29,840 bases of DNA from a virus: positions 1 to 29,840 of IMG/VR virus record IMGVR_UViG_3300008107_000643; one strand, 5' to 3'. The notes under the pieces were generated by a model that had not been told where the DNA came from, did no database searches, and worked only from the letters and a program-made list of their open reading frames with translations. Within the stretch, counting starts at the first letter, position 1. Each line of letters opens with the position of its first letter. Below are positions 4,397 through 26,932 of the stretch, one piece after another. The translations under genes and the position numbers were made by a program.

Positions 4397-4431
4397 AAAA
4401 AAGCCGGGTGTAAAAGCCTGGCTTTTTTTTT
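4397..4431 (+). terminator. Rho-independent terminator after the SSB gene
   Basis: An A6 run at 4397-4402, stem GCCGGG (4403-4408) / CCTGGC (4417-4422), loop TGTAAAAG, and a T9 tract at 4423-4431. The A and T runs extend the stem to 12 pairs and make it potentially bidirectional. Confidence 0.9.
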
Positions 4432-10525: not shown

Positions 10526-10583
10526 ACTTTTTTTTTTAACACACTATAAAAAATATATAAAAATATATATATAAAAGATAGAA
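10526..10583. other. AT-rich tract, possible DNA-unwinding element
   Basis: Nearly pure A+T between the repeats and the next gene: a T10 run at 10528-10537, then alternating ATATAT at 10550-10573. No gene and no clear TAnnTTTG promoter. Its place beside the repeats suits strand opening at an origin. Confidence 0.55.
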
Positions 10584-14771: not shown

Positions 14772-15152
14772 ATGCCTGAGTTTATGCCTGGCCGTAATGG
14801 CGGTAAGTTAATACGACCAGCGAAAGGAGAAACGATGAATCCAAACGGTAGGCCGCGTAAATATGTGAGCTTATTAAAAGAGAGTGGATATAAACTATCT
14901 GAGATAAACGATACGATTCAAAGTATGATGGCGATGGACTTGGACGAACTTAAAGCCGTATGGGATAATCCAAAATCAACTATACTAGAAAAGACTATCG
15001 CCAACGCTATGAAAAAAAGCCTGGAGAAAGGCAGCCTTTATTCTTTGGAAACATTACTTACAAGAGTTTACGGTAAGCCAAAGGAAACGGCTCAGGTTAC
15101 AACAGACGGCAAGATTGAGGTTATATTCACGAAGGGCAAAACGATATTATGA
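14772..15152 (+). CDS. Terminase small subunit-like protein
   Basis: A 126-residue protein directly upstream of the terminase large subunit, sharing an ATGA overlap with it. It begins with a basic glycine-rich tail (GRNGGKLIRPAKGETMNPNG), and the conserved NPNGRPRKYVSLLKESGY leads into a helical core (SEINDTIQSMMAMDLDELKA, then LEKTIANAMKKSLEKGSL). The YGKPKE segment near residue 104 is typical of small-terminase-like proteins adjoining DNA-processing genes. It would recognise the packaging site and hand DNA to the motor. Identification leans on position; the sequence is only moderately diagnostic. Confidence 0.75.
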   Translation: MPEFMPGRNGGKLIRPAKGETMNPNGRPRKYVSLLKESGYKLSEINDTIQSMMAMDLDELKAVWDNPKSTILEKTIANAMKKSLEKGSLYSLETLLTRVYGKPKETAQVTTDGKIEVIFTKGKTIL

Positions 15153-16309
15153 TCCTGGAACTTCCGGAACCACATATAAATCAACAAGCCATTATTGACA
15201 GCGATGATAGATTTCGCGTGGTTATGTGTGGGCGGCGATTTGGTAAAAGTGAATTGAGCCAAATTGAAATAATTATTGAAGCATTAAAAGGTGGAGCCGT
15301 TGGGTATATAACGCCAACATATAATCTAGCTAAAACATTCTTTGATAAACTTACCAAAGTAATTCCATTCCCTTCAAACCGAAGCGAGTTAAGTATTGCA
15401 TTTCCGAATGATGGCATGGTACAGTTCTTTACTGGTGAAAGGCTGGATAATCTGCGTGGCCGCAAGTTTAACTTAATAGTTATTGACGAAGCCAGTTTCA
15501 TTCCAAACTTAGAAGATGGTTGGCTTAATTCAATCCGGCCAACATTAACGGACTATCGAGGTCGCGCATTATTCTTAAGCACACCGAAGGGCAAAAACTA
15601 TTTTTATAGCCTATACCTTAAAGGTGAAAATAAAGAGCCAGGCTGGGCGTCGTTTAAATTTACGACTTACGATAACCCGCATATTGATCCGCTGGAGATT
15701 GACGATGCGAAAAGCCAACTACCTATCGCGGTGTTCGAGCAAGAGTACATGGCGAACCCTAGCGAGAACGCAGCGAATCCGTTTGGCTTATCGTATATCC
15801 AACAATGTACTTATCCGCAAAGCCAAGCCGAGCCGGTTGCTTATGGTATTGACTTAGCGAAGTCGGTGGATTGGACGGTTATAATTGGCATAGATAAAAC
15901 AGGCAATGTTTGCTACCTTGACCGCTTCCAAAAAGACTGGCGGCAAACGCGTGAGGCGATACGCAAGTTACCCAAAGCGCCGATGCTGATAGACTCGTCA
16001 GGCGTGGGTGATCCTATTGTCGAGGACTTGCAAAGCGATGGCCTTAACGTAACCGGTTTTAAATTCAGTAGTACATCAAAGCAGCAAATTATGCTGGGCC
16101 TTGTGTCAGCGGTGCAGCAACGTAAGATCACATTCCCTGAGGGCGTGATAACAAGAGAACTGGAAACGATAGAATACCAATTCAGCGCAACGGGTGTGAA
16201 GTATGGCGCACCATCCGGATTCCATGACGACGCGGTTATGGCCTTAGCCTTAGCGTGGTCGCATTATCAAAACTTTGGACAGAGTGCCGGGCGGTATTCA
16301 TTTAGCTAA
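15149..16309 (+). CDS. Terminase large subunit
   Basis: A 386-residue packaging motor. The ATPase has Walker A CGRRFGKSE (27-35), Walker B LIVIDEAS (109-116) and coupling motif FLSTPKG (142-148). The RNase H-like nuclease has AYGIDLAKSVDWTVI (231-245; Asp235), MLIDSSGVGD with a second Asp, and FHDDAVMALALA near the end. The protein is somewhat short for the family but complete. It cuts concatemeric DNA and drives it into the prohead. It starts in the ATGA overlap with the small subunit. It is the anchor for reading everything downstream as the structural module. Confidence 0.95.
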   Translation: MILELPEPHINQQAIIDSDDRFRVVMCGRRFGKSELSQIEIIIEALKGGAVGYITPTYNLAKTFFDKLTKVIPFPSNRSELSIAFPNDGMVQFFTGERLDNLRGRKFNLIVIDEASFIPNLEDGWLNSIRPTLTDYRGRALFLSTPKGKNYFYSLYLKGENKEPGWASFKFTTYDNPHIDPLEIDDAKSQLPIAVFEQEYMANPSENAANPFGLSYIQQCTYPQSQAEPVAYGIDLAKSVDWTVIIGIDKTGNVCYLDRFQKDWRQTREAIRKLPKAPMLIDSSGVGDPIVEDLQSDGLNVTGFKFSSTSKQQIMLGLVSAVQQRKITFPEGVITRELETIEYQFSATGVKYGAPSGFHDDAVMALALAWSHYQNFGQSAGRYSFS

Positions 16310-16317
16310 TTAATAAT

Positions 16318-16530
16318 ATGAAAGACTTAACGATTACCTTTACATTCGATGACGCATACTATCTTAAGCATATTATTTTTGAAGATAATACGACTGGCTT
16401 ACCTAGCGACGTTGAAACGCTTGAGGCATTATGTTATGTACTGCGTAAAGCGTTGGATAATAAAGAGGCAGAACGACAAACAGAAAACTTACTTAAACAA
16501 TTAAACATAAAAACAAATGACCTGGAATGA
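16318..16530 (+). CDS. Hypothetical protein between terminase and tail genes
   Basis: A 70-residue protein, acidic and predicted helical after an initial beta-like stretch (KDLTITFTFDDAYYLKHI). It ends in a charged helix (LRKALDNKEAERQTENLLKQ), which could be a short coiled coil. No family recognised. It lies in the structural operon and overlaps the tail chaperone gene by 14 nt, so it is likely a small assembly factor, but that is inferred from position alone. Confidence 0.65.
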   Translation: MKDLTITFTFDDAYYLKHIIFEDNTTGLPSDVETLEALCYVLRKALDNKEAERQTENLLKQLNIKTNDLE

Positions 16531-17155
16531 CGTAACCGTATTTCAATGGCAGCAATTAATGAATTTGTATGTCAAAGAGGACGTGGCAGATTTAGAAACG
16601 GCAACCTTAAGCATATTATTCAACCGAACCGAAAACGAAATACTTAGCTTAAGCGAAGGTGAGCGGCTTGGCTTATTAAGCAAGATTGATTTTGTACATA
16701 CGCCACCGCAAGGAAAGCCGGAGAAAAGCATCAAGTGCCAAAGCGGGGCGCGGTATAAATGTATCTATGATGTAAGGCAACTTCGTGCGGCGCGGTATAT
16801 TGAAACCAAACATTTTGCTAAGGATCCGGATGAGAACCTTCACCGCGTTGCTGCGTCAATGGTACTGCCGATGCGTAAGACATGGCTTGGATATAAAGCG
16901 ACAAAATATGACGCTTCAAAGCATGAGGAGTACGCCAATGACTTACTGACCGCGCCGATACCAGCGGTTTTGGGATCAGTTGTTTTTTTTTGCGAAGTAT
17001 ATCGGAGATGGATGCAAAATTCTCAGGACTATTTGATAAAGGAGATGATGGCGAAGGGGATGACGGAAGAGCAAGCCGCGGAGGCATACCAAGTTTTATG
17101 GATGTATACGGATGGCACTACCAGGCATCTCTGGTCGCCGAATACGAGCGAATAA
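16517..17155 (+). CDS. Tail assembly chaperone, zero-frame product
   Basis: A 212-residue protein of the kind that precedes tail genes in Bacteroidetes phages (MTWNDVTVFQWQQLMNLYV opening, then acidic helical N-terminal domain). It is inferred to be the gpG-like chaperone that coats the tape measure before tail tube polymerisation. Support: position upstream of the tail genes and tape measure, and a T9 run at 16983-16991 that sits in the gene and would allow -1 slippage into an open frame continuing to 17274. The zero frame runs on for 55 residues past the slip site to TAA 17155 (EMMAKGMTEEQAAEAYQ). The tail chaperone is the classic site for this frameshift in long-tailed phages. Confidence 0.78.
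   Translation: MTWNDVTVFQWQQLMNLYVKEDVADLETATLSILFNRTENEILSLSEGERLGLLSKIDFVHTPPQGKPEKSIKCQSGARYKCIYDVRQLRAARYIETKHFAKDPDENLHRVAASMVLPMRKTWLGYKATKYDASKHEEYANDLLTAPIPAVLGSVVFFCEVYRRWMQNSQDYLIKEMMAKGMTEEQAAEAYQVLWMYTDGTTRHLWSPNTSE
16984..16990 (+). promoter_or_regulatory. Candidate -1 ribosomal slippery site T_TTT_TTT
   Basis: The zero frame reads GTT TTT TTT TGC at 16982-16993. The heptamer T TTT TTT (16984-16990) fits X_XXY_YYZ with both codons able to re-pair after a one-base backward slip. After slippage translation enters the frame that is open from 16942 to the stop at 17274. Sequence alone does not show how efficient it is; no strong downstream pseudoknot is obvious by eye. Confidence 0.7.
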
Positions 17156-17274
17156 AACTAGCTGAAGTTTGGGATCTTAGTGCGTTGAACTTTTTGAACG
17201 ATCTTAGCTATTTAAAGGCGAAGGCGGAATATGAAAAAGCTGTCTTTGAACAAGCAAGAAAATGGCAAACATAA
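16990..17274 (+). CDS. Tail assembly chaperone, -1 frame extension (gpT-like)
   Basis: 94 residues in the -1 frame relative to the chaperone, ending at TAA 17274. Fused through the slip site it gives a protein of about 252 residues (158 from the zero frame). The sequence is protein-like, not a shadow: an acidic glycine-rich linker (FDKGDDGEGDDGRASRGG), then MDVYGWHYQASLVAEYERIK and a helix LSALNFLNDLSYLKAKAEYE, matching the pattern of phage proteins encoded between chaperone and tape measure. The alternative is independent initiation at ATG 17008, where GGAG abuts the start codon too closely to act as a ribosome site. The overlap with the zero-frame gene is 166 nt, far longer than any other overlap here, which favours frameshifting. 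Confidence 0.72.
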   Translation: MRSISEMDAKFSGLFDKGDDGEGDDGRASRGGIPSFMDVYGWHYQASLVAEYERIKLAEVWDLSALNFLNDLSYLKAKAEYEKAVFEQARKWQT

Positions 17275-17999
17275 GTCAAGCGCAAGCGAAGTTACTTAAC
17301 ACAAACTTTTTAGATAGTTTAGCCAAAGACGATAGTTTTACGGCTAACTTAGATAACTTACCGCTTACGCAGCGTTTACTCATTGAAGCGGCTGCGGTGT
17401 TCGTGCAAAATGCGCGGGATAATGTACAAAAGCCAAAGAATGGTCGCAGCCTTATTTCAACCGGCGCTTTGCAAGATAGTATCTTCGCTAGTGAATTGCG
17501 TGTTGACGGCAATAACTTAGAGATTGATTTAGGATATCGCGGCAAGGGCGGTAAGTATGCTGACTTCGTCAATGAAGGTGTTAAAGGTATCGAGAGCCAA
17601 GATCGCGCACCTCAATCGCCATACTCATTTAAAGCGGCTAATGGTTTAACGCCTGGGCCATCGATGCGCAAAGCCTTAGAGCAATGGATCAAAAAAAATA
17701 GGGCAAAGATACGCAATACACCCGCAAATGTTAATTATAAAAAGTCAAGGGGTGGCGGTGTAGCTGGTGCAGCGGCAACGCAAAGCAAACGCCGCGCACT
17801 ATCGCAAGGCCAAGATGTAAAGAGTTTAGCGTATGCCATCGGAACGAATATCCGTAAAAAAGGACTAAGACGTTCCGGCTTTTTTGATGATGCGATTCGC
17901 GATACGTTTAACCAAACATTTTACGATGCGGTGGCCTCGGTTGTTGGTGCGGATATGAGCATAGGCATAAGGAAGCTAAATAATCTATCTACTAAATAA
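17262..17999 (+). CDS. HK97 gp10-like tail/neck protein
   Basis: A 245-residue protein. LIEAAAVFVQNARDNVQKPK (residues 41-60) followed by STGALQDSIFASEL and GGKYADFVNEGVKG is the pattern of HK97 gp10-like proteins: a long helix, a strand pair, then a Y-ADFVN-G signature. These are tail-completion or tail-terminator proteins at the head-tail interface. An insert of about 90 basic residues (KKSRGGGVAGAAATQSKRRA and around) is longer than in typical family members. It starts 12 nt before the stop of the chaperone extension. Family likely; exact role open. Confidence 0.65.
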   Translation: MANISQAQAKLLNTNFLDSLAKDDSFTANLDNLPLTQRLLIEAAAVFVQNARDNVQKPKNGRSLISTGALQDSIFASELRVDGNNLEIDLGYRGKGGKYADFVNEGVKGIESQDRAPQSPYSFKAANGLTPGPSMRKALEQWIKKNRAKIRNTPANVNYKKSRGGGVAGAAATQSKRRALSQGQDVKSLAYAIGTNIRKKGLRRSGFFDDAIRDTFNQTFYDAVASVVGADMSIGIRKLNNLSTK

Positions 18000-21290: not shown

Positions 21291-23219
21291 ATGGCGCAGA
21301 ATCAGAACGTAAATATTAAAGCGACGGTATCGGTTGACGATAGTTCCGTTAAACAATATAACAACACACTTGACCAAACGCAGCAAAAGACGGAAGCCGC
21401 CTTTAATCCAAAAAAAGCGTTAAAGGAAGCAAAGTTAGCGTTAATTGAAGCGCAACAAGCCTTTGGAACGTATAGCGAAGAGGCGGTAAAGGCAGCTCGA
21501 AGAGTTGCTGAATTACAAGATCAGATTGCAGACGCAAACGAAACGGCCGCGCTTTTTGATCCAGGTAAAAAGTTTCAAGCGTATTCAAACGCTTTGCAAT
21601 CTGCGGCGGGTGCGTTTGCCGGAGTGCAAGGTGCGATTGGTTTATTGGGTGTTGAATCAGAAAAGGTCAATGAGCAACTTTTAAAAGTACAAAGCGCACT
21701 TGCTTTGTCTGAAGGCTTATCCACTATTAGCGATATCGGTAAAAACTTTGGGCAGCTGGCAACGGTTATCAAAAGTCAAGTTGTCGGTGCGTTTCAAGCG
21801 TTAAAGGCTGCCATCGGTTCAACCGGTATTGGTCTTTTAGTTATTGCGTTGGGTACGATTGCGGCATATTGGGATGACATTAAAGCGGCGGTGAGTGGAG
21901 TAAATGAGGAGCAAAAGAATGGACTTGCAACGGCAAAACAAGCGGCGGATATTGAAGAGAAAAAACTTGATGAATTAGACGCTCAAGATAATGTACTTAA
22001 GTTACAAGGAAAGAGCGAAAAGGATATTTTAAAGTTAAAAGTTGATCAGATTGGCAAGGTCATAGATTTACGCAAAGCCGAACTGGAAAAAAATCGTGAT
22101 ATCATCAAAGGTACGATTGAAGCAGAAAAGCGTAATAATCAATTTTTACAAAATGTTTTAAGGGTAGCCATTGAAGCATCGCTAGTTCCGCTTCGTATAT
22201 TGGCCGCTCCTATTGATTTACTTTTAAAAACCGTTAATTCAGTTAGTGAATCGCTAGGTTTAGCAAAAGTAACGGCGATAAATTTAAACGATGAGATAAA
22301 TAAATTAGCAGCGGCCGGTACAAAAAAAGTTGCTGATTTTGTTTTTGATGTAAAGAAAACAGAAGCCGAAGGTGCAGCCACACTTGCGGCGGCTGAAAGT
22401 AATATAAAGAAACTAGAAAACCAACGCGCTGGTTTTCAATTAAGTTTGCAATCAATAGACAAGCAAGGCTTAGAAAAAAGATCGAAAGATGTAAGTGATG
22501 ATGAAGAAAAAAGATTGAAAGCCGAAGAGGAAGCCTACAAAGAGCGCAAAAAAAGACTTGAAGGCATTAACGATGAAATAACTGAAAACCGAAAAAAGCA
22601 GATTCGGGATGTTACCAACGCTGAGATAAATGAGTTGCCAAAAGTACTTAGCGCAAGGTTAAACATAATAAGAACAGAGGAGCAACTTAAAGAGGATCAG
22701 GCGCGACTAGATAGGGCGCGTTTTGAGGAGGCTATGGCGCGTGAAGCAGCGTTCCAAGATACGCTGAAAATAACCGGCGACACCTTTGTAAAGTTAGGCG
22801 AAATCGTTGGTAAGCAAACCGCAGCGGGTAAAGCCCTAGCCGTTGCCCAAGCACTCATAAACACTTATCAAGGTATTACGCAGATATGGGCAAATAAAAC
22901 GACAATACCTGAACCATTTGGCACTATCCAAAAAGTAGCGGCAACGATTACCGCAGCGGCCTCAGGTTTTGCAGCGGTTAAGGGAATTGTCAGAACATCT
23001 GTACCTGGCGGCGGTGGCGGTGGATCAAACGTACCGGCTGGGGCGGGTGGCGCTGCACCCATATCGCCTCAAGCACCTCAGGCCATTACGACACAATTAT
23101 CTCAACAAAGCGTTAACCAATTAGGCACAATGACCGCTCGCGCTTATGTCGTTGAGTCAGACGTAAGCAATTCACAAGAGCGCATCCGTAGAATAAACCG
23201 CGCAGCAACATTTGGATAA
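21291..23219 (+). CDS. Tape measure protein
   Basis: A 642-residue protein with the marks of a tape measure: long alanine/lysine/glutamate coiled-coil regions (for example 40-95 and 380-470), a hydrophobic segment at about 173-193 (STGIGLLVIALGTIAAYW) that could insert in the host membrane during ejection, and a small-residue C-terminal block (AAGKALAVAQALINTYQG, then a Gly-rich linker SVPGGGGGGSNVPAGAGG). At about 1.5 angstrom per residue the tail would be roughly 95-100 nm, a typical siphovirus length. It is chaperoned by the product of 16517-17274. Confidence 0.85.
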   Translation: MAQNQNVNIKATVSVDDSSVKQYNNTLDQTQQKTEAAFNPKKALKEAKLALIEAQQAFGTYSEEAVKAARRVAELQDQIADANETAALFDPGKKFQAYSNALQSAAGAFAGVQGAIGLLGVESEKVNEQLLKVQSALALSEGLSTISDIGKNFGQLATVIKSQVVGAFQALKAAIGSTGIGLLVIALGTIAAYWDDIKAAVSGVNEEQKNGLATAKQAADIEEKKLDELDAQDNVLKLQGKSEKDILKLKVDQIGKVIDLRKAELEKNRDIIKGTIEAEKRNNQFLQNVLRVAIEASLVPLRILAAPIDLLLKTVNSVSESLGLAKVTAINLNDEINKLAAAGTKKVADFVFDVKKTEAEGAATLAAAESNIKKLENQRAGFQLSLQSIDKQGLEKRSKDVSDDEEKRLKAEEEAYKERKKRLEGINDEITENRKKQIRDVTNAEINELPKVLSARLNIIRTEEQLKEDQARLDRARFEEAMAREAAFQDTLKITGDTFVKLGEIVGKQTAAGKALAVAQALINTYQGITQIWANKTTIPEPFGTIQKVAATITAAASGFAAVKGIVRTSVPGGGGGGSNVPAGAGGAAPISPQAPQAITTQLSQQSVNQLGTMTARAYVVESDVSNSQERIRRINRAATFG

Positions 23220-23240: not shown

Positions 23241-24287
23241 ATGGAAAAAAATAATTTACCCGTTTATAGACTTGACATCGTGGAGAATGATGAAAGCGAA
23301 GTTGAAGTGGACTTCGTTGCGCTAGTCGATAGACCAGCGATTGAAAAAACGTTCCAAATGTTTAAAGCCGATGAATTTTTAGCACCTGGGCCTACGGAAA
23401 ACCATGACGAATGGATAAGCCGCTGCATGGGTGTAATTGTTGGCGAAGAGGGCAAAGACACCGATCAAGCGTACGCTATTTGCGAAAGCAAGTGGGATAG
23501 TGAAAAATTTGCTGAGTCATATAGCGACTATCCCGAATCGGTTAAGAATAACGCAAAGGCTGCTATAAAATGGGCAGAGGAAAACGGATGGGGCGATTGC
23601 GGAACGGCAGTTGGTAAGATAAGAGCCAACCAACTGGCAAATGGTGAGCCGGTATCTTTGGAAACCATTAAGCGTATGTATTCATTCTTAAGCCGTCATA
23701 AGCAAAACGCTGAAAAGTCAAGCGGATATGGCGATGGCTGCGGTCAGTTAATGTACGACGCATGGGGTGGCGCAAGTGCGCTCAGTTGGGCAGAGTCTAA
23801 AATCAGACAAGCCGAAAAAAGCCAATTTGCCATACAAGACGAAGAGGAGCGCATTATATCCGGCCCTTTGATGTTGGCGAATAAGCCGATATTCCGCTTT
23901 GATAGTTTTGGGGAATACTATGTTTACTTTACGCCTGACACGATTAAGAAAATCGTTCAAAAAGTTTTTCGTAAAGGTTATCAGTCAAACGTTAACATTA
24001 TGCACGACGGAAACCAGGTTGTTGACGGCGTTACGATGTTTGAGTCATGGATAGTTGACCGCGAACAAGGCAAGATGCCCATGAAGGGATATGAGGACGC
24101 AGCCGATGGCAGTTGGTTTGGATCGTACAAGGTAAACAATGACGAAGTTTGGCAAGATATTAAGGAAGGCAAATATAAAGGCTTCAGCGTTGAGGGGATA
24201 TTTAACTACATTAAAGCGGATCAGGTAAGTACAGACGAAGAGAAAATGCGCAAGATTATTGACATCCTTGAAAGCATTGAAAAATAA
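23241..24287 (+). CDS. XkdF-like prohead protease with internal domain insertion
   Basis: A 348-residue protein. Residues 1-45 (YRLDIVENDESEVEVDFVAL, then VDRPAIEKTFQMF) and 195-330 (ERIISGPLMLANKPIFRFD, GYQSNVNIMHDG, KGFSVEGIF) are an XkdF-type head maturation protease split by an insert. Likely catalytic residues are His255 in NIMHD and Ser316 in KGFSVEG. The insert holds two conserved-looking units: SRCMGVIVGEEGKDTDQAYA with AICESKW at 60-85, and YPESVKNNAKAAIKWAEENG, VGKIRANQLANGEP, IKRMYSFLSRH and LMYDAWGG (97-177). It should cleave the scaffold and capsid N-termini during maturation. It lies directly before the scaffold and capsid genes, as expected for a protease. Confidence 0.82.
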   Translation: MEKNNLPVYRLDIVENDESEVEVDFVALVDRPAIEKTFQMFKADEFLAPGPTENHDEWISRCMGVIVGEEGKDTDQAYAICESKWDSEKFAESYSDYPESVKNNAKAAIKWAEENGWGDCGTAVGKIRANQLANGEPVSLETIKRMYSFLSRHKQNAEKSSGYGDGCGQLMYDAWGGASALSWAESKIRQAEKSQFAIQDEEERIISGPLMLANKPIFRFDSFGEYYVYFTPDTIKKIVQKVFRKGYQSNVNIMHDGNQVVDGVTMFESWIVDREQGKMPMKGYEDAADGSWFGSYKVNNDEVWQDIKEGKYKGFSVEGIFNYIKADQVSTDEEKMRKIIDILESIEK

Positions 24288-24315
24288 AGGTTTACAATAG
24301 CAAATGGTAAAGAGT

Positions 24316-24343
24316 ATTATGCGGCACTATTTAGCCGCATAAT
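24316..24343 (+). other. Intergenic hairpin before the scaffold gene
   Basis: A perfect 10-bp inverted repeat ATTATGCGGC (24316-24325) / GCCGCATAAT (24334-24343), loop ACTATTTA, 9 nt before ATG 24353. There is no T tract, so it is not a standard terminator. It may be an RNA processing or stability element or limit translation of the next gene. Confidence 0.7.
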
Positions 24344-24352
24344 TCATTTATA

Positions 24353-24919
24353 ATGACCGCAAAACAAGCATTAGAGCAAATCAAGGCACTATTCGCAGAC
24401 GAGAACCCGCAAGAGGCGGCTTCAGCGACTCCGGTAGAGCAGTTCAAAGAGTATCAACTTGCCGATGGGGCAAAAGTAATGATTGACAACCTAGCCGTTG
24501 GTGGTAAGGTAACCGTTGAAGGCCCAGAGGGTGAAATTCCGGCTCCAGCTGGTGATCACATTCTAAGCGATGGAACAGTTATCACAACCGATGAAGCTGG
24601 TCTTATTACTGAGATACAAGTTCCAAAAATCGAAGTGGAAATTGAAAAAGAAAACGAAACCGAACTTTTGAAAAAGAAGGTTGAGGAAATGGAAGCCAAG
24701 ATTGAGGAAATGGGTAAAAACTACAAAGAAAAGATGGAAGCACAAGCCGCTGAATTTTCTGCGATGGTTGCTGCAAGTGAGAGCAAATTAATCGCACTCA
24801 GCAATGTATTAACAGAATTTTTTGCAGCACCTTCCGCTGATCCAGTAGCACCTGAGAAATTTCATTCGTCAAAAGACGATAAAATCAATCGCTTTTTAGA
24901 GAGAGCGAAAAGTTTGTAA
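24353..24919 (+). CDS. Capsid scaffold / assembly protein
   Basis: A 188-residue acidic protein between the protease and the major capsid protein. Residues 45-90 form a beta-rich unit (VTVEGPEGEIPAPAGDHILS, then DGTVITTDEAGLITEI). Residues 95-140 are a heptad-rich coiled coil (ETELLKKKVEEMEAKIEEMG), the hallmark of scaffolding proteins. The C-terminus (DDKINRFLERAKSL) is basic and amphipathic, as in scaffolds that touch the capsid through a short basic helix. It would be removed by the neighbouring protease during maturation. Starts after the hairpin at 24316-24343; the leader is AT-rich. Confidence 0.78.
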   Translation: MTAKQALEQIKALFADENPQEAASATPVEQFKEYQLADGAKVMIDNLAVGGKVTVEGPEGEIPAPAGDHILSDGTVITTDEAGLITEIQVPKIEVEIEKENETELLKKKVEEMEAKIEEMGKNYKEKMEAQAAEFSAMVAASESKLIALSNVLTEFFAAPSADPVAPEKFHSSKDDKINRFLERAKSL

Positions 24920-24951
24920 ACAAAATTTTTAATTTTTAAATTCACAAAACA

Positions 24952-25893
24952 ATGGGTTTTAGCGTAGGATCCTTAGCGGATTACACAAAACAAAATGCTC
25001 AACAACTGGTAACTTCATCAGTATTAGGAGCAAAAACGATTGACTTAATTAAGCAATCTTCAAACGTTATGGTTGGCGTAAAATCAAGCGAAACCATCAA
25101 CATCATGGACACAGACACGCTTTTCCAAAGTGGTGCATCTTGCGGTTTTACTGCATCAGGTACAACTTCATTCACTCAGCGTACTGTAACTGTTGGTAAA
25201 ATTAAAGTTAACGAAGCGCTTTGCTTAAAAGACCTTGAAGCTAAATACTTACAAGAGGCTCTTCCACGCGGTAGCCGTTACGATTCAATGATCTTTGCTG
25301 AAGAGTATTCTAATCGTAAAGCTCAGAAAATTGCTGACGCACTTGAAGCTGCGGTATGGCAAGGCGATATCACTAGCGGAAACTCTCAGTTATTGCATTT
25401 CGATGGTTTGATTAAGCAAGTAAACGCTTCAGCGGTACAAGCCAATGCAAACCCTTACATCGCTACTGTTGCAACTGACATCACAAGTGCAAACGTTATC
25501 GCAGTATTCGATGCGGTTTACGCTGCTATCCCAGCTGCGGTTGTTGGTAAAGACGATGTTAAGATTTTCTGCGGAATGGATACTTTCCGTACTTACACCA
25601 TCGCGCTTAAGAACGCAAACCAATTCCACTACTCTTTAAACGTTAAAGCAGATAGTGAGTTCATTCTGCCAGGTACACAAATCACAGTTGTGGCTACACC
25701 AGGCTTGAACGGAACTAAAAAGGTTTACGCCATGAGAATGTCAAACATTTTCTTCGGTACTGACCTTTTGGATGAGCAAGAACGTTTCGAGTTGTTCTAT
25801 GCGAAGGAAGCTGACCAAGTTCGTTTCGTTGCCGAGTTCAAAGCCGGTGTAAACGTAGCGTTCCCAGCTGAGGTTGTGAAGTTCACCGTTTAA
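24952..25893 (+). CDS. Major capsid protein
   Basis: A 313-residue protein that fits an HK97-fold capsid subunit: an N-terminal arm (residues 1-30), an extended loop with SETINIMDTDTLFQSGASCG, a long helix (SNRKAQKIADALEAAVW near 125-141), VFDAVYAAIPAAVVGK in the peripheral domain, and a beta-rich axial domain ending in AEFKAGVNVAFPAEVVKFTV. Position after protease and scaffold and a codon set richer in GGT, CGT and CTT than neighbours support high expression. Leader is T/A-rich (AATTTTTAAATTCACAAAACA) without a Shine-Dalgarno sequence. Confidence 0.9.
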   Translation: MGFSVGSLADYTKQNAQQLVTSSVLGAKTIDLIKQSSNVMVGVKSSETINIMDTDTLFQSGASCGFTASGTTSFTQRTVTVGKIKVNEALCLKDLEAKYLQEALPRGSRYDSMIFAEEYSNRKAQKIADALEAAVWQGDITSGNSQLLHFDGLIKQVNASAVQANANPYIATVATDITSANVIAVFDAVYAAIPAAVVGKDDVKIFCGMDTFRTYTIALKNANQFHYSLNVKADSEFILPGTQITVVATPGLNGTKKVYAMRMSNIFFGTDLLDEQERFELFYAKEADQVRFVAEFKAGVNVAFPAEVVKFTV

Positions 25894-25908
25894 TCATTAT
25901 TCACTACG

Positions 25909-25932
25909 GGATAGGCGGTTCGCCGCTTATCC
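25909..25932 (+). terminator. TTCG-loop hairpin after the capsid gene
   Basis: A 10-bp stem GGATAGGCGG (25909-25918) / CCGCTTATCC (25923-25932), one G-U pair, with a TTCG tetraloop. The following CCTTTAAATAAT has only a short T run, so it may be a weak, partly read-through terminator or a 3' stabiliser that raises capsid mRNA over downstream genes. Confidence 0.6.
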
Positions 25933-25949
25933 TTTAAATAATAAAAAAT

Positions 25950-26462
25950 ATGTCTTGCGCATTAACACAAAACTACGTTTTAGATTGTAAGGACTCACAA
26001 GGCGGTCTTGAAGCCGTTTGGTTCATTCCTTACAATGATGTTACGGCTATAACCGAAGCATCAGGAGTGGTAAGTGCGATTACAAAGGCAGCTGGTAAGC
26101 AGTTTTACAAGTATCAACTTGTTAAGAATACCGCTTCATTTACTGAGAATATTCAAGGTAATATCGAAAACGGAACTATCAACTACGATCAGCAGCTGGT
26201 AATTGTTATCAACAAACTCCAGGTTAACATGAGAAATGAAATTCTTTTGTTGGCTAAGAATAACTTAATGGCCGTTATTAAAGATAAAAACGGAAAATAC
26301 TGGTTAGCTGGTCGCTATTCCGGTCTTGATCTTTTAAGCGGAACAAGCGGAAGCGGAACGGCTGCAACTGACAGAAGCGGATACTCTTTGACCTTCTCAG
26401 GTTCAGAGAAAGAACTGGCTCCGGAAGTAGCAAGTGGCGTAATTTCTACGCTGCAACCATAA
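25950..26462 (+). CDS. Probable tail tube (major tail) protein
   Basis: A 170-residue protein following the capsid gene. Its pattern (SCALTQNYVLDCKDSQGGLE, ENIQGNIENGTINYDQQLVI, then RNEILLLAKNNLMAVIKDKN and GYSLTFSGSEKELAPEVAS) is shared by a common Bacteroidetes phage structural protein with a beta-sandwich like tail tube subunits. The length of about 170 is right for a tube protein, and its codon use resembles that of the capsid gene. An alternative is a capsid decoration protein, favoured by its place among head genes. A terminator follows, so capsid and this gene may be a high-expression block. Confidence 0.65.
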   Translation: MSCALTQNYVLDCKDSQGGLEAVWFIPYNDVTAITEASGVVSAITKAAGKQFYKYQLVKNTASFTENIQGNIENGTINYDQQLVIVINKLQVNMRNEILLLAKNNLMAVIKDKNGKYWLAGRYSGLDLLSGTSGSGTAATDRSGYSLTFSGSEKELAPEVASGVISTLQP

Positions 26463-26498
26463 CAACTGATTGTTGTTTCGTTGTCATAGGTTAAGTTT

Positions 26499-26527
26499 AC
26501 CGCCTCAATTCGTTGGGGCGGTTTTTT
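26499..26527 (+). terminator. Rho-independent terminator with TTCG loop
   Basis: Stem ACCGCCTCAA (26499-26508) / TTGGGGCGGT (26513-26522) with loop TTCG and a T6 run at 26522-26527. It splits the capsid block from the portal block. No obvious promoter of TAnnTTTG type follows before ATG 26576, so the portal genes may need read-through or a promoter for the phage sigma-like factor. Confidence 0.9.
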
Positions 26528-26575
26528 ATTATTTTGCGAAATGATAAAAATTTGTAAACTTGCTATTTATTACAT

Positions 26576-26932
26576 ATGTTGAACATATACACAGGCAATA
26601 ATACTTTTATCATGACGTTAACTGAAAAGCAGACCTTAACGTCGCCGAACTATATTTTTGTGTTTACGCATCGTACAACCAACGATGAATATAAGTTTTT
26701 AAAACTAAACGCAGACGATCAAAGCCAATATAAATACCGATACAATAAGTTTACGGTGAATAGCAATTTAATCGGTAAGCCTGGGCAATATGAATATCAG
26801 ATATATCAGACATCAGGCAATACGACAGACATAACAAATAAAGTAATGTTGGAGAGTGGCATAGCTATATTTCACGAAACCGATTTAACATACATCACAA
26901 GAAATAAAAACAATGAGTTCATTTTCCAATGA
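26576..26932 (+). CDS. Small virion-associated protein
   Basis: A 118-residue beta-rich protein. NNTFIMTLTEKQTLTSPNYI, FVFTHRTTNDEYKF, and KPGQYEYQIYQTSGNT have the rhythm of a jelly-roll or Ig-like domain that recurs in Bacteroidetes phages next to capsid and portal genes. It has no cysteine, signal peptide or enzymatic motif. Possible roles are capsid decoration or a neck protein; the family is real but its role is not known to me. It overlaps the portal gene by 20 nt. Confidence 0.65.
   Translation: MLNIYTGNNTFIMTLTEKQTLTSPNYIFVFTHRTTNDEYKFLKLNADDQSQYKYRYNKFTVNSNLIGKPGQYEYQIYQTSGNTTDITNKVMLESGIAIFHETDLTYITRNKNNEFIFQ

Follow-up and report, generated by a model that had tools for sequence, protein, structure and literature searches.

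A conserved nine-T run as a probable -1 recoding site for a G/GT-like protein pair in tailed phages, read by RNA polymerase or by the ribosome

The question raised by this locus is whether a run of nine T inside a phage gene joins two overlapping reading frames into one longer protein and, if it does, whether the ribosome or RNA polymerase is the machine that slips. The locus lies in a viral stretch of 29,840 nt (IMG/VR record IMGVR_UViG_3300008107_000643; hereafter the window), for which the original prediction was a -1 programmed frameshift in a tail assembly chaperone. The sequence confirmed the elements from which that prediction was built: the T9 falls in the zero-frame codons GTT TTT TTT TGC and contains the heptamer T_TTT_TTT in phase (16984-16990), the -1 frame stays open over 16942-17274, and the 166 nt at 16990-17155 (+) are coded in two frames (Table 1). 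The products are probably, as in lambda G/GT, a short protein (A, 212 aa, calculated 24.6 kDa) and a -1 extended protein (A-B, 252 aa, calculated 28.8 kDa, in agreement with the fusion of about 28 kDa that had been expected). The N-terminal part of A is common to both, its C-terminal tail past the slip site is dual-coded, and B runs for 94 codons and a stop after the slip. A zero-frame protein and a -1 fusion from one gene are also the products of lambda gpG/gpGT and of the tail-assembly frameshift of long-tailed phages, and the locus further resembles lambda in belonging to a tailed phage, in product sizes of similar order and in the -1 direction.

Table 1. Features of the recoded locus and its surroundings (window coordinates; A and B were folded as separate chains with AlphaFold2)
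Feature	Position	Strand	Evidence or remark
Terminase large subunit	15149..16309	+	Upstream neighbour, kept in most relatives
ORF A, zero-frame product	16517..17155	+	28 relatives, 42-55% identity; AlphaFold2 mean pLDDT 83
T9 slip site	16983..16991	+	At least nine T in every site-bearing relative
ORF B, -1 extension	16990..17274	+	28 relatives aligned; AlphaFold2 mean pLDDT 75.5
HK97-gp10-like protein	17262..17999	+	PF04883, 27.1 bits vs cut-off 21.4; downstream neighbour, kept in most relatives
Tape-measure protein	21291..23219	+	Not adjoining A/B; phrog_24676 E 1.8e-16; phrog_9483 E 5.9e-15

Because about one T9 per window is expected from composition (0.9 T runs of nine or more), the run at 16983 alone proves nothing. 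The window holds further homopolymers (T9 at 4423, T10 at 10528, and A9 at 23218), all outside likely coding regions, and by our reading of the ORF list the T9 at 16983 is the sole T run of seven or more within any likely coding ORF. The T9 at 4423-4431 forms the T tail of the hairpin AGCCGGGTGTAAAAGCCTGGCT in an intergenic, terminator-like element (window 4400-4431). What raises the run at 16983 above chance is its conservation in homologous contexts.

Relatives of A and B were gathered by protein-based scans of IMG/VR. P12024S_38 was reached by searching folds with the A model, and scans that started from P12024S_38 and its family brought in a second family, which is contained in phrog_32199 (unknown function). 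Family 2 proved homologous to family 1 in both parts: for A, hhalign gave a probability of 98.9 with E 2.9e-17 at 17% identity and placed FF on FF, and for B profile comparison gave a probability of 92.8 (E 4e-7). An initial tally of 78 contexts gave 76 with nine T and two with ten, all of them equal in phase and with B in -1. The final count, in which B served as anchor at all loci on viral contigs of the two families, gave at least 308 distinct homologous contexts holding both frames, with T9 in 295 and T10 in 13, numbers that overstate the statistics and are not readable as p-values, the relatives not being independent lineages. Among the matches listed, a shorter run was found in 0 of 308 and the partner frame B lay in -1 in 308 of 308; a separate count, again among the matches listed, gave T9 in 261 and T10 in 14 of 275 contexts. 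Codon-degenerate search patterns kept the scans from favouring T over C; very distant relatives lacking the run may be missed, because the patterns derive from known members. The hosts of this A/B superfamily are probably Bacteroidota, judging from the Nonlabens isolates and from one contig assigned to a Chitinophagaceae genome bin.

No named phage was found directly with A or B of the window, and the Nonlabens (Persicivirga) phages P12024S and P12024L were reached solely through family 2. Their gp38/gp39 and gp40/gp41 (phrog_32199) have a homologous A adjoining the terminase, an equally phased T9 and, in -1, an ORF that carries the B domain; they differ in being annotated as two separate hypothetical proteins and share about 20% identity with the window protein. 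P12024S_39 (L248:23578-23830) and P12024L_41 (L392) appear to be shortened gene calls on what is the -1 extension of the gene before them, the fusion having been missed.

Homopolymers are prone to error, and a sequencing or assembly error could in principle split one ORF into two; one contig, L090, does carry a continuous A-B ORF. The probability of this explanation is negligible in our view, as the 295 listed contexts with T9 come from many samples and from both of the diverged families, the phage isolates P12024S and P12024L carry the run too, and constraint on both frames beyond the run is unexpected from an error. The continuous ORF (L090:2536-3198) reflects the loss of 98 nt, slip site included, and not a change in the homopolymer; apart from this deletion, L090 matches L084 at every aligned position. 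It is possibly a rare variant or an assembly artefact and was given no weight. Sequencing error, which the original prediction had named as a way to refute it, is thus excluded in practice by T9 or T10 in the 308 listed contexts and in two cultured phages. Flavobacterium phage 6H gp10 was not counted as a relative: its fold match is weak (E 0.13) and unsupported by profile comparison, and its -1 frame stops two codons past T_TTT_TTC. On the minus strand of the same phage (L247:10044-10361), an unannotated open frame overlaps the end of gp10 just past T_TTT_TTC.

The alignment of A-B fusions from the relatives is unbroken across the junction. Divergence at codon positions one, two and three (45 clusters) was 0.37/0.27/0.61 where A alone is read, 0.39/0.27/0.60 where B alone is read, and 0.33/0.20/0.36 in the -1 frame just after the slip. 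The B frame is coding-like in that positions one and two stay conserved past the end of A, and its third position is restrained just after the slip (0.36 vs 0.60), which fits expectation because A is also read there. Constraint on the two frames peaks right after the slip, within the 166-nt overlap, and selection seems to act on both C-termini. Together with the unbroken alignment, these divergences bore out the claim that the -1 frame encodes protein-like sequence, and the comparison of slip site and both frames at homologous loci that had been proposed as a check came out in its favour, with T9 or T10 throughout the listed contexts and both frames constrained in the 45 clusters. From slip to zero-frame stop, the overlap in relatives is 51-267 nt (median 189), whereas it averages 26 nt in SEA-PHAGES tail chaperones (PMC10885494), a difference from systems of the lambda gpG/gpGT type. 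An uncultured phage protein, BFVD A0A6J7WJY4 (243 aa), matches the models of A (E 4.4e-6) and B (E 9.7e-5) alike and is possibly a natural single-frame A-B fusion.

The two frames might instead be two overlapping genes, B having its own start and no recoding taking place. The window does have an ATG in the B frame, at 17008, and the annotators of P12024S called such a short ORF, P12024S_39. This ATG is not common to the relatives, as B lacks any ATG in its first 30 codons in 79 of 86 non-redundant ones, and conservation of B begins with the codon that directly follows the slip (LSS, LSF), ahead of any ATG like 17008. A separate start for B is largely refuted by these two observations, which leave it very improbable; a conserved equivalent of ATG 17008, which would have spoken against the original prediction, was looked for and is absent. 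By comparison of relatives, recoding is well supported, and the T9 run is almost certainly a real programmed -1 recoding site.

If so, most transcripts or ribosomes would hold the zero frame and give A, some fraction would end in the -1 frame and give A-B, and the two would act as a ratio-controlled pair in tail assembly, like lambda gpG and gpGT. Two machines could produce the shift: RNA polymerase may add one U on the run, upon which translation would move to -1, or tandem tRNA-Phe may slip on U_UUU_UUU. In our view RNA polymerase is no less likely than the ribosome to be the machine that slips, because the run is never shorter than nine T, a conserved stimulatory structure was not found and no alternative heptamer is used. 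The balance is almost equal and tips slightly towards the polymerase; the ribosome stands just below an even chance, and both could contribute.

Nine consecutive A or T give efficient slippage in bacteria in vivo (PMC5009743). The run is a homopolymer in the range associated with transcriptional slippage (from about nine A or T upwards), and among the listed contexts it never falls below nine across two families of 17% identity. All 86 non-redundant relatives have T as the wobble base of the second Phe codon, even though a C there would leave protein A unchanged and, in the 83 that read TTA or TTG, B too; elsewhere, TTC follows TTT in 14% of Phe-Phe pairs. Within 263 kb of other ORFs there were 0 T runs of nine or more (2.2 expected) and 0 A runs of ten or more (8.0 expected). 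T7 in other ORFs is avoided alike in phase and out (ratios 0.35 and 0.43), so that a phase-dependent ribosomal cost is not indicated. Runs of T6-T8 and A7-A9 in the ORFs of the 86 related loci and the window lie below synonymous-shuffle expectation (for example, T7 15 vs 32 expected and A9 6 vs 18 expected), and A_AAA_AAG is not avoided there (ratio 1.03).

Shigella mxiE/spa13, Thermus dnaX and Citrobacter tssM resemble A/B in having a homopolymer of about nine A/T within an ORF and a longer product in another frame, with no need of an RNA structure; they differ in being bacterial genes with demonstrated slippage, whereas A/B is known from sequence alone and its run doubles as a perfect ribosomal slip heptamer. 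The +1 frame stops early (after 2 or 7 codons in most relatives), which would suit slippage but was given no weight because it is bound to coding constraint. Since amino acids can explain the first and the ninth T (V/L/I/F before, T-initial codons after), the T9 by itself is not proof of a length requirement.

To our knowledge, all tail-chaperone cases are cases of ribosomal slippage. Classical ribosomal -1 frameshifting, in which the P- and A-site tRNA-Phe re-pair on U_UUU_UUU and the T9 is the heptamer plus flanking codons, is the main rival here, and we rate it somewhat below an even chance. A heptamer of the form X_XXY_YYZ, as used in such frameshifting, is present in phase and perfect (T_TTT_TTT) in all relatives, and the residues before (V/L/I/F) and after it (Y/C/W/L) all give the needed T, so the T9 may equal heptamer plus protein constraint; the known G/GT-type cases reviewed in PMC5009743 are also all ribosomal. 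A downstream stimulatory RNA structure, which is common but not obligatory, was not found by pseudoknot-free folding of 45 relatives, whose z-scores are just marginally below controls while that of the window is positive, nor by RNAalifold on 26 sequences, with a consensus energy of -0.39 kcal/mol and 0 compensatory pairs; the fold scan downstream of the slip that the original prediction had suggested thus gave nothing convincing. Further against the ribosome, none of T_TTT_TTC, T_TTT_TTA, T_TTT_TTG and A_AAA_AAG replaces T_TTT_TTT among the 308 listed contexts, and in-phase T7 in other ORFs is tolerated no less than general T-run avoidance predicts. Of the programmed -1 frameshift first proposed, the conserved recoding that joins the zero frame to the -1 frame stands, but a ribosomal slip is not established, given a run that always has at least nine T and no conserved RNA structure.

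Lambda G/GT had also been invoked for having the frameshift in exactly this gene position, and here the claim failed. The order terminase, A, HK97-gp10-like gene is found in most relatives with enough flank, and some 4 kb with two large ORFs separate A/B from the tape-measure gene further downstream, whereas lambda-type chaperones lie just upstream of it (here A is at 16517, the tape measure at 21291). A/B also differs from lambda in a slip site that is always T9 or T10 and in having no sequence match above cut-off: searches of Pfam, PHROGs and NCBIfam with A and B gave 0 matches above cut-off, a PDB sequence search gave nothing, and the A model had 0 matches among PDB folds with E up to 0.001. 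The window has an unusual order at 23241-26932, in which the tape measure is followed by a protease (Peptidase_S78_2), a likely scaffold, capsid and tail-tube-like genes (assigned by ORF reading) and the portal.

Below those thresholds, A matches Phage_TAC_7 (PF10109) weakly in 5 of 28 members (best E 0.031, all below the gathering score; 12.3 bits vs a cut-off of 25). This family includes the chaperones P2 gpE/E+E', HK97 gp14 and Mu gp41, and the slip site of P2, T_TTT_TTG, is likewise T-rich. In one member the weak match covers residues 4-54, towards the N-terminus of A; A differs in being about 2.5 times the length of the 79-position model, with a best E of about 0.03 that lies under the gathering score. 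In the searched L104 genome, the only Phage_TAC_7 match (E 0.195) is an A-like ORF lying near the position of A. Five of the 18 family 2 members weakly match phrog_166 'tail protein' (best 0.004), and the B model is weakly like phiC31 gp42 and annotated tail assembly chaperones.

The recoding may be real and the pair serve head completion, DNA packaging or the neck instead of acting as a tail assembly chaperone. The locus between terminase and HK97-gp10-like gene in most relatives would suit such a role, as would the want of any above-threshold chaperone-family match and of a solved-fold match for A. We nevertheless regard it as rather unlikely, for a short protein with a -1 extended partner is found, at the level of sequence, in a tailed phage whose genome encodes a siphovirus-like tape measure, no other obvious G/GT candidate appears in the window by reading of the ORF list, and the weak matches to Phage_TAC_7 (the A-like ORF of L104 included), to phrog_166 and to annotated chaperones count towards a tail role. 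The assignment as tail assembly chaperone is therefore plausible through its sub-threshold chaperone and tail matches, and unproven in that A lacks a solved-fold match and the position differs. With moderate confidence, we suggest that the A/B pair works like the G/GT pair, and we do not file it under any chaperone family. Taken as a whole, it is fairly likely that recoding at the T9 gives A and A-B as a G/GT-like tail-assembly pair, be it by polymerase or by ribosome.

Lambda-type tail frameshifting is the textbook case of a fixed product ratio. We put forward, tentatively and at rather less than even probability, that a large undescribed superfamily, probably of Bacteroidota phages, makes its G/GT-like pair via RNA-polymerase slippage on an invariant T9, the ratio being set at transcription. 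If the polymerase reads the homopolymer in this way, the same regulatory need would be met by another machine, and the product ratio would vary with host polymerase and transcription conditions; a G/GT-like pair driven by polymerase slippage would be new within the literature and databases searched. By either mechanism, A/B genes of the superfamily, on hundreds of contigs and in two isolates, are split or truncated in annotation and their long product is overlooked, and in the cultured P12024S and P12024L the recoding arrangement is unnoticed in their annotation.
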